From assembly GCF_000633935.1 (NCBI RefSeq), contig NZ_KK214996.1:699880-763879 (forward strand): 64,000 nucleotides of DNA, read 5' to 3'. The translations under genes and the position numbers were made by a program. Below, piece by piece: positions 15,396-55,597 of the stretch. This DNA is from Ectothiorhodospira haloalkaliphila ATCC 51935. GTDB lineage: Bacteria; Pseudomonadota; Gammaproteobacteria; Ectothiorhodospirales; Ectothiorhodospiraceae. How positions within the stretch are numbered: position 1 is the stretch's first letter; every line of letters starts with the position of its first letter. The notes beneath the pieces were generated by a model. That model worked only from the letters and a program-made list of their open reading frames with translations. It was not told the origin of the DNA and made no database searches.

Positions 15396-15410
15396 GGAGG
15401 GAAAACAAGG

Positions 15411-15770
15411 GGAGTCGGCCGGTAAGCCGGGTTCTGTCGTGGACAATCATTCCTCTGGGGCGCGCGTCACCACGCGCCTCTAGCAGCCTACCCGGGTGCA
15501 GTGCGGGCCACACCAACGCACCCCTATTTGGCCTTGCTCCGGACGGGGTTTACCCTGCCGCGGCGTGTTGCCACCCGCGCGGTGCGCTCTTACCGCACCA
15601 TTTCAACCTTACCTGTGTCCGTGCCCGAAGGCCGAGGACCATCGGCGGTATATTTTCTGTGGCACTTTCCGTCGGCTCGCGCCGCCCAGGCGTTACCTGG
15701 CGCCCTGCCCTGTGGAGCCCGGACTTTCCTCTGCGGCGTGGGGTCCGCAGCGACTGTCTGGCCAACTCCA
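15411..15770 (-). ncRNA. rnpB: RNase P RNA (M1 RNA), bacterial type A
   Basis: Catalytic RNA of the tRNA 5'-processing ribonuclease. On the minus strand the conserved blocks occur in the right order: GAGGAAAGTCCGGGCTCC near the 5' end, CAGGTAACGCCTGGG, GGTAAGAGCGCACCGCGCGG, GGAGCAAGGCCAAATAGGGG, and finally CACGACAGAACCCGGCTTA close to the 3' end. Total length of about 360 nt is normal for type A. The ends are estimated from the GGAGTTGGCC/GGCCGACTCC pairing and may be off by a few bases. Confidence 0.96.
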
Positions 15771-21166: not shown

Positions 21167-21208
21167 CCCGCCACCGGGGGGCCACCGGGCGTTTCGCTGC
21201 GCACGCAT

Positions 21209-21450
21209 GTGGGAGCGGCCCTCGGCCGCGAAGGGTCTTCTCAAAACGAAGCCACAACAGCCTCCGAACCTCGTCGGGGCGGTGTGCCTGGGAGCGGGTG
21301 TTCGCCGCATGGATGCGGCGGCCAAGCCTACAGGGATGTATTCACGGCGTCCCGCGGACAGGCATACCGCCCCGACGAGGTTCACTCCGCTGCCAACCGA
21401 GGGGGATGGTGTGCGGGCTCTGACCCTTCGCGGCCGAGGGCCGCTCCCAC
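21209..21450. repeat. Nested inverted-repeat element, copy 1
   Basis: A 242-bp non-coding block. The outer arms are perfect 27-bp inverted repeats (21209-21235 and 21424-21450; they begin GTGGGAGCGGCC and are themselves REP-like). Inside are 25-bp arms (21266-21290 and 21359-21383; one mismatch). At the core is an 8-bp hairpin CGCCGCAT-GG-ATGCGGCG (21304-21321) followed by AAGCCTACAGGGATGTATTC. A second copy lies at 55308-55544. It fills the gap between the convergent FAD dehydrogenase and sspB genes. Confidence 0.9.
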
Positions 21451-21478
21451 AGTCAGAATCACACAGGGTGGTGAGGGT

Positions 21479-21889
21479 TTACTTGACCACCCGAAGGCTC
21501 GGGCCCTTCTTCTGGGCGCCGGAATCGCCGGTGCCGGAGCCGTTATCGTCCCCGCCACCCTCCGGCGGAGGCTCATCGCCATCGCCGGGCTCGGCGAACA
21601 TCATGCCCTGGCCGTTCTCGCGCGTGTAGATGGCCAGCACCCGATCCACGGGGATGATCACGTTCATGGGACGCCCACCAAAGCGGGCGCTGAACGTCAC
21701 CTCTTCATTGCCAATGCTCAGAGCGCTGACCGCCATGGGGGCCACGTTCAGCACGATACGACCCGCCTCCACATACTCGCGCGGCACCACCACTTCCGGC
21801 GCCGCGTCCACCAGCAGGTGGGGCGTCATGTCATTGTCGGCGATCCACTCGTAAATGGCTCGAATCAGGTAGGGACGACTGGAAGTCAT
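21479..21889 (-). CDS. sspB: ClpXP adaptor SspB (stringent starvation protein B)
   Basis: Adaptor that tethers ssrA-tagged substrates to ClpX. The ATG at 21889 begins MTSSRPYLIRAIYEW, the conserved SspB opening, and gives 136 residues. The substrate-binding domain covers about 1-105 and is followed by an acidic Gly-rich linker and the C-terminal tail SLRVVK, the ClpX-docking motif seen in E. coli SspB. It is the last gene of the petABC-sspA-sspB run; the usual sspAB pairing is kept. Confidence 0.95.
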   Translation of the reverse strand: MTSSRPYLIRAIYEWIADNDMTPHLLVDAAPEVVVPREYVEAGRIVLNVAPMAVSALSIGNEEVTFSARFGGRPMNVIIPVDRVLAIYTRENGQGMMFAEPGDGDEPPPEGGGDDNGSGTGDSGAQKKGPSLRVVK

Positions 21890-47304: not shown

Positions 47305-47348
47305 TCAAGGGGGCGGCGGTCACCACGGGGCGCGGTTGCGCGCCTCCG

Positions 47349-47426
47349 AAGCTTCCCTCCGCCGGTATGATCCGGTTCAGGTTCCAAGGGACTGTCTCAG
47401 CCCCCTTCGGGGGCACCCCTAGCTTC
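47349..47426 (-). promoter_or_regulatory. TPP riboswitch (THI element) of thiC
   Basis: Minus-strand aptamer upstream of thiC. P1 is closed by GAAGCT (47426-47421) with AGCTTC (47354-47349); the conserved GGGGTGCC, GGGCTGAGA and ACCTGAACCGGATCATACCGG-type blocks (47382-47362) follow in order. It ends about 54 nt before the thiC ATG. A CCCCCTTGAGG stretch near the ribosome binding site suggests control of translation initiation, though this is inferred. Confidence 0.95.
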
Positions 47427-47434
47427 AGGCGCCC

Positions 47435-52132: not shown

Positions 52133-52170
52133 TCGCCAGCCCCCTCAGTCGGAGCCAGCCAACCTCCCCT

Positions 52171-52345
52171 GTGGGAGCCGGCCTGCCCCCCCTTGTGGGA
52201 GCCGGCCTGCCGGCGATGCGCTGCGACAGCAGCGCCCGAGCCAGACCATATGCCCACCGCCTTCGCGGGCAAGGCCCGCTCCCACATAACTCGGCCGGGC
52301 CAGGCCATATGCCCACCGCTTTCGCGGGCAAGGCCCGCTCCCACA
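52171..52345. repeat. Cluster of REP-like repeats
   Basis: Two direct copies of a 17-mer starting GTGGGAGCCGG (52171-52187, 52195-52211) are followed by two direct copies of a 41-bp unit (52246-52286 and 52305-52345; one mismatch, 59-bp period). Each unit begins CCATATGCCCACCGC and ends GGCCCGCTCCCAC, which is the reverse complement of a REP-type end. The cluster fills the gap between the convergent hydrolase and waaA genes. Confidence 0.85.
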
Positions 52346-55267: not shown

Positions 55268-55309
55268 GGATCTGGAGATGGATCTGGAGATGGATGTGGA
55301 TGTGGATGT
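55268..55309. repeat. Hexanucleotide tandem repeat
   Basis: Seven consecutive GGATNT/GGAGAT hexamers: GGATCT-GGAGAT twice, then GGATGT three times. It runs directly into the left end of the nested repeat element at 55308. Such a tract could expand or contract; it lies outside any gene. Confidence 0.8.
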
Positions 55310-55544
55310 GGGAGCGGCCCTGGCCGCGAAGGGGACTCCAAACGAAGTCACGGAAGCATCCGAACCTTGGTGGGGCGGTGTGCCTGGGAGCGGGTGTTCG
55401 CCGCATGGATGCGGCGATCAAGCCTACAGGGAGGTATTCACGGCGTCCCGCGGACAGGCACACCGCCCCACCAAGGTTCACGCCGGTGCCCGACGAAGGG
55501 GCGGACGCCCGGGTTGGCCCCTTCGCGGCCAGGGCCGCTCCCAC
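55308..55544. repeat. Nested inverted-repeat element, copy 2
   Basis: 237-bp partner of the element at 21209-21450. Outer arms (55308-55334, 55518-55544) are perfect 27-bp inverted repeats; middle arms (55362-55386, 55455-55479) are perfect 25-bp inverted repeats; the CGCCGCAT-GG-ATGCGGCG core hairpin and AAGCCTACAGGGAGGTATTC are conserved. Arm sequences differ from copy 1, but the differences occur on both arms so that pairing is kept. Together with the hexamer tract it fills most of the hldE-lpxL gap. Confidence 0.9.
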
Positions 55545-55597
55545 AGGAAACTCGATCACAGCGCGATTTGATACAATCGCGGTTTTGTCCGCAACCC

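Follow-up and report, generated by a model that had tools for sequence, protein, structure and literature searches.

The window, by which we mean the whole 64,000-nucleotide stretch of DNA that was analysed, carries two copies of a nested palindrome whose inner unit of about 118 bp is well supported as a strand-specific, selected RNA repeat with two GGA loops. We favour the view, at a probability of about 0.56, that this unit is a variant of the TwoAYGGAY type of RNA that occurs in high copy number, is transcribed by read-through and serves as a decoy or sponge for CsrA. The unit would act as an RNA read from the + strand of the window, in which a long stem of free sequence ends in a three-way junction from which two hairpins with A-N-GGA-N hexaloops project. 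We infer that a single dimer of the translational regulator CsrA/RsmA binds these two loops, whose GGAs in each window copy start at a distance of 23 nt. Copies would be transcribed by read-through of adjoining genes to release a stable, stem-protected decoy, and some 40 copies together could make up a distributed CsrA sponge.

The nested palindrome is real and consists of two separable parts, an outer pair of REP sequences and the inner unit, which spans positions 21266-21383 in copy 1 and 55362-55479 in copy 2. A sequence-only reading of this DNA described three levels of symmetry, and all are present in copy 1: outer arms with 100% complementarity that measure 30 bp, not 27; middle arms with 88% complementarity over 33 positions, the outer 25 of which pair, one of them as G.T; and a core hairpin of 8 bp. 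Copy 2 (55307-55545) has the same build, with outer arms of 28 bp (100%) and middle arms of 33 bp (91%). The arm differences reported between the copies (CCCTCGGCC/CCCTGGCC and CTCGTCGGG/CTTGGTGGG) are there, and each is compensated in the opposite arm. Nonetheless, the three levels do not form one element, because 31 of 40 genomic copies lack one or both outer arms, which constitute a separate repeat. Also, the segment AAGCCTACAGGGATGTATTC, previously taken to be single-stranded-like, proved instead to be most of the second hairpin, with co-varying pairs. When up to three mismatches are allowed, the core pattern matches twice in the window, compared with a mean of 0.00 over 100 shuffled sequences. 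The component features are as follows:

21208..21237, + strand: outer left arm of copy 1, a REP sequence (TGTGGGAGCGGCC...GGCCGCGAAGGG) that is itself a hairpin, resembles P. putida REPs and is complementary to 21422-21451
21422..21451, - strand: outer right arm of copy 1, the inverted REP copy (30 bp, 100% complementarity)
21266..21290, + strand: left arm of the variable 25-bp stem, with 0/25 pairs constant among copies
21359..21383, + strand: right arm of the variable 25-bp stem, pairing with 21266..21290
21294..21298, + strand: GCGGG, the inner part of the stem that closes the three-way junction, pairing with 21351-21355 (100% and 99.6% of cells paired in the own-genome and class-wide alignments)
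Between GCGGG (21294..21298) and the long stem: GGA/GGA internal loop of copy 1
21302..21321, + strand: hairpin 1 (HP1), loop ATGGAT at 21309-21314, GGA at 21311-21313
21326..21348, + strand: hairpin 2 (HP2), with a 5-nt bulge, loop AGGGAT at 21332-21337, GGA at 21334-21336
55307..55334, + strand: outer left REP arm of copy 2, half of a 28-bp inverted pair
55362..55479, + strand: whole inner element of copy 2, GGAs at 55407-55409 and 55430-55432
55518..55545, - strand: outer right REP arm of copy 2, the other half of the 28-bp pair

A search of the window's own genome (G000) recovered the inner unit about 40 times by BLAST (40 distinct copies) and 41 times with a covariance model, R1, built from the own-genome copies. 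Each copy has a stem of 25-30 bp whose sequence is nearly free and yet almost always complementary, capped by the three-way junction with its two hairpins. The proposal that pairing is maintained was strongly borne out: 24 of 25 long-stem pairs have changed on both sides among these 40 copies, 91.5% of stem cells pair, and the contrary outcome named by the sequence-only reading, arms that vary independently, was not seen in the 40 genomic copies. Their covariation score is 0.492, against 0.136 (sd 0.008) for shuffles and at most 0.103 for slid versions of the structure. The class-wide alignment (A2), which is fitted to the structure by the model and includes six low-scoring opposite-strand matches to the same places, scores 0.846, with slid versions reaching no more than 0.149. 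There, all 25 stem pairs show two-sided change, and most stem columns carry less than 0.4 bit of sequence information. The stems of HP1 and HP2 co-vary as well; one HP2 pair is A-U in 37, C-G in two and U-A in one of the 40 copies. The GGA/GGA internal loop is found in some copies only, and others pair there or differ.

The fold can also be followed at individual loci shared with a second genome (G007). In 17 orthologous pairs we counted 12 fully compensated stem doublets, five of them at a single locus (L018/L116), and in the eighteenth pair (L034/L114) the arms differ in length by one base on both sides. One-sided stem changes are seen too, often to or from G.T, and the outer arms of two loci (L011 and L012) are poorly aligned in this comparison. 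The compensated doublets and the paired length change indicate that copying from arm to arm may help to keep the arms matched. Such copying explains neither the loops nor the mismatch pattern described below.

To determine which strand folds, we counted mismatches at stem positions flanked by Watson-Crick pairs, where G.T and A.C should be equally frequent if the strand is irrelevant. Isolated mismatches in class-wide copies comprise 45 G.T and 11 A.C (p 5e-6; 87 of 88 copies from 31 genomes, the one left out having too few pairs), and G.T is in excess in 19 of the 31 genomes and A.C in three. These copies are covariance-model matches, and those listed score above 80 bits, so a single mismatch would not hide a copy. 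Copies collected by BLAST on the core gave 17 G.T and 10 A.C in G000 (40 copies), and 17 G.T and three A.C in G007 (27 of 29 copies, two with weak stems being omitted); the combined excess in these two genomes, which have orthologues in common, has p 0.003. The favoured strand is the one that bears the GGAs. This result indicates selection on one folded strand and supports an RNA, a single DNA strand being less likely.

HP1 and HP2 in most copies read C-A-N-G-G-A-N-G, giving hexaloops A-N-GGA-N, and one subfamily has a shorter HP1 loop. For the loop count, the six opposite-strand rows and duplicate rows were removed from A2 (53 to 44). Among the 44 distinct copies, mostly from other genera, the A, G, G and A of the HP1 loop are conserved in 44, 44, 43 and 44, and those of the HP2 loop in 44, 44, 44 and 44, while the N positions vary; because copies were selected with the model, this GGA conservation is partly ascertained. 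Two exact CANGGANG motifs are present in 77 of 87 class copies and wanting in 10, and three of the 40 own-genome copies fail a strict test for two GGA loops. Orthologous copies provide a further measure. Across 18 G000/G007 pairs, the GGAs have changed at 0 of 108 sites and the loop N positions at 16 of 72 (Fisher p 1.4e-7); the A before N has changed at two of 36 sites and the unlabelled rest of the core at 20 of 828. These pairs represent 18 of 22 occupied sites, with the tandem arrays (L031 and L032) omitted and one copy taken where G007 has two (L003, L010 and L037); aligned flanks at the compared loci are 73-97% identical, mostly 84-96%. The contrast of the GGAs and the core with the N positions points to site-specific selection.

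The element is patchily distributed. R1 matched 67 genomes in a class sample of 369, 25 of 47 genomes of the family and 28 of 398 genomes in a phylum sample, all of the last being Gammaproteobacteria (the share of other classes among the 398 is not given); copy counts per genome in the class and phylum samples are 'at least' values. The genus is split between five genomes with 28-41 matches and five with one or two. The closest named genomes are those of Ectothiorhodospira, and a protein that adjoins the element is 92% identical to its E. marina counterpart. In each of four low-copy congeners, G002-G005 (L065-L068, about 4.0 kb), a copy lies upstream of a gene read as leuS and is possibly a conserved regulatory copy; no leuS was found near any G000 or G007 copy examined. 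Direct tandem arrays with a period of about 150-170 bp occur at L031 (465-913) and L032 (488-771), and at L113 and L104 in G007. No match to the core of one representative (L101) was found in plasmids, phages or E. coli. Viral contigs gave no exact pattern match, in a search that is not fully sensitive because the pattern matches 91 of 319 element loci.

Thirty-five of the 40 G000 copies could be mapped in G007 by both flanks. Twenty-two of these sites are occupied and 13 lack an intact copy, insertion and loss not being told apart in general. At L004 the entire REP-element-REP unit is missing from G007, whereas L022, the second copy of L018 and L035 look like deletion or decay there. Of the L018 copy (2779-2909, compared with L116), the right arm and CCCGC are all that G007 retains, a sign of a decaying copy. 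The proposal that the arms derive from the target site found no support, as the G007 counterpart of L004 is without arm sequence.

Among the 40 copies, nine have facing REP arms within 160 bp on both sides and 10 have one on a single side; the other 21 have none. The table in PMC2817692 gives P. putida REPs as TGTGGGAGCGGGC.TGCCCGCGAA, to which the outer arms of the element are similar, and inverted REP doublets that enclose other sequence are noted there for pseudomonads and Thioalkalivibrio. The REPs are no part of the RNA, and an inverted REP doublet allows its interior to flip. Copies with both arms can indeed be found in either orientation: in G007 three loci (L002, L009 and L012) are flipped, and E. 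marina carries copy 1 the other way round. L001 and L016 are unchanged in G007, and L003 is ambiguous. Orientation is kept in all twelve compared pairs that lack one or both arms. Further REP-like matches occur at 52170-52345 of the window (TGTGGGAGCCGGC twice on the + strand and TGTGGGAGCGGGC twice on the - strand), where the core pattern is absent. In G007 (L121, 1900-3550), a gene with a PEP-CTERM-like end lies between two REP-bearing copies in inverted orientation, a composite-looking arrangement; G000 has a single copy of the element at this place.

Gene context was determined with a simple gene caller whose gene starts were corrected. Among the 35 sites at which genes were called on either side, with each tandem array counted as one, gene orientations are +- at 12, ++ at 12, -+ at six and -- at five. 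Convergent sites are mildly over-represented (12/35, versus 31/169 gaps in stretches of G007; Fisher p 0.04), and divergent sites are not depleted. An apparent strong preference for convergent genes (15/30) was discarded, as some of the uncorrected starts ran across the element. At 24 of the 35 sites, an upstream gene is oriented so that read-through would enter the element in the proposed sense, and a read-through sponge must explain the 11 sites that have no such gene.

The sequence-only reading had left the choice between a structured RNA and a non-autonomous mobile element. The G.T excess, the invariant GGA loops and the co-varying short hairpins favour the RNA, and what stands of the mobile alternative is the outer REP doublet and the multiplication of the inner unit. 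We regard it as rather unlikely that the unit is itself a mobile element, in which a transposase or other nuclease would recognise a folded single DNA strand with the core as recognition site and the GGAs as coincidence. Such an element would fit the sharp differences in copy number among congeners, the 13 mapped sites without an intact G007 copy (including the absent unit at L004) and the presence of copies in every gene context, and a strand-specific G.T excess is also compatible with a single DNA strand. No partner gene was found, however. G000 has four Y1_Tnp matches, one of them weak (32.8 bits), in a search that lumps RAYT and IS200 types, and since Y1 transposases match in 43 of the 47 family genomes, with and without the element alike, they do not discriminate as a cause of its patchiness. 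The 22 copies common to G007 imply that many copies are old, the plasmid, phage and viral-contig searches described above were negative, and a mobile element of this sort does not predict that GGA stays invariant in both loops while the N positions around it vary freely.

The same loop data weigh against a functionless palindrome whose arms are matched by template-switch (quasipalindrome) correction or gene conversion and whose cores are homogenised between copies. The one-base length change in both arms of L034/L114 looks like a single copying event, as do the five double changes at L018/L116, and the 12 doublets over 17 pairs fit that account. Site-specific selection in the core and loops does not, arm copying is not expected to yield G.T over A.C, and the short HP2 stem shows compensated changes at single loci (L007/L120 and L039/L117). 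We consider this reading already disfavoured, and improbable. A role as a 3'-end element of flanking genes, either terminator or mRNA stabiliser, seems very improbable. It draws on the convergent sites, but that enrichment is weak, no T run follows the stem, the lone terminator-like match in the vicinity of copy 1 belongs to another hairpin, at 21490, and the loops are left unexplained.

Turning to the preferred reading, an RNA decoy for CsrA, we compared the loops with known binding sites. PMC7652899 gives RUACARGGAUGU as the consensus from CsrA SELEX: its ACA and GGA are invariant, AC and GU pair with each other, and most loops have six nt. According to the same source, a single dimer bridges sites at distances of 10-63 nt, best at more than 18. 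Compared by eye, HP2 agrees with this consensus at 11 of 12 positions in copy 1 (CUACAGGGAUGU), at 10 of 12 in copy 2 and at 12 of 12 in L090 and L101. The element shares with CsrA decoys near-SELEX GGA hairpin loops, two sites within bridging distance and a host CsrA gene. It does not have many GGA sites per RNA. As each copy has two conserved loop sites, we do not class it with the classical Csr sRNAs. According to PMC11882849, binding to CsrA is much weaker for sRNAs that have one or two GGA motifs than for the classical ones. No sigma-70-like promoter was found around copy 1.

CsrA matches are present in 41 of 47 family genomes, with two in G000. Second, divergent matches occur in G000 (G000:C1:197670), G007 and several family members, and some open frames contain two (for example, G035:C39 and G026:C3). 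The protein read in four congeners looks like E. coli CsrA. One genome with TwoAYGGAY (G010, 81% complete) gave no CsrA match. CsrA is found in all ten genomes of the genus, where copy number is patchy, and therefore does not explain the patchiness. CsrA is the likely partner, and a sponge function of the putative decoy is plausible. More tentatively, and with some doubt, the element might be the bacterial counterpart of a functional SINE: a dispersed repeat family, patchy across Gammaproteobacteria, whose selected product would be a two-site CsrA-binding RNA and which would serve as a sponge in some genomes, depending on copy number and transcribed neighbours.

With a TwoAYGGAY relative that numbers about 40 copies per genome and has both GGA loops under selection in a per-site test, the suggested link to CsrA becomes directly testable. 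If the link is true, repeats that are easily taken for junk palindromes can titrate a global regulator.

Several known systems resemble the element in part. Rfam models at their gathering cut-offs matched only an ordinary RNase P RNA (15407-15769, - strand, 315 bits) and an ordinary TPP riboswitch (47337-47430, - strand, 74 bits) in the window. Ysr224 (RF02770) matches the antisense strand weakly at full length, with scores of at most 36.6 bits that are far under its cut-off of 70; this probably reflects a generic long hairpin. REP doublets and REPINs, which are RAYT-associated, are like the outer arms (P. putida type), and it is these arms that show a REP-type hairpin sequence, inverted pairing and many copies. 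The inner element is far longer and is not a REP, and for 21 of 40 copies no REP faces the element from within 160 bp on either side.

The decoy sRNAs CsrB and RsmZ (RF00018, RF00166) share GGA hairpins with the element, but they carry many GGAs in one RNA (22 in CsrB, as given in PMC11882849), whereas the element has two in each of some 40 copies. In 20 relatives neither was found over cut-off, the best scores being 33.2 of 44 bits for RsmZ (G003) and 30.2 of 71 for CsrB (G043). CsrB belongs to the same Rfam clan (CL00106) as TwoAYGGAY, the Rfam family nearest to the element.

TwoAYGGAY (RF01731) has been a candidate RNA since 2010, with its function not given as proven in the sources consulted. 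PMC4333381 mentions tandem G.A pairs in one of its stems and an earlier proposal of CsrA binding for Clostridia. The literature search brought up no study that describes an RNA like TwoAYGGAY as a dispersed repeat. Like the element, TwoAYGGAY has a long outer stem, a three-way junction and two GGA-loop hairpins, and it is multi-copy in some genomes of the class. The element has these loop and junction features, with the N before GGA often G, not Y, and its HP2 differs in having a short stem with a TTCAC bulge. RF01731 (gathering cut-off 43 bits) gave no match in G000 at E<=10, and the element is below cut-off in the window as well; among 20 class loci one matched at E<=0.5 (L089), with 35.3 bits. 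Conversely, R1 misses five TwoAYGGAY loci in G010. Since the RF01731 cut-off is not reached, we regard the element as a variant working like TwoAYGGAY rather than a member. Two loci are intermediate between the kinds: L089, and one over the RF01731 cut-off (L162) that has junction segments like those of the element (GACCGTC, GTCGAGC and GCGT). In one genome of the same family, RF01731 has 11 matches over cut-off. Among the 369 class genomes, RF01731 was positive in 23 (15 over cut-off), and five of the 23 were also positive with R1. The 67 genomes matched by R1, compared with the 15 over the RF01731 cut-off, indicate that this kind of RNA is far commoner in the class than Rfam shows.
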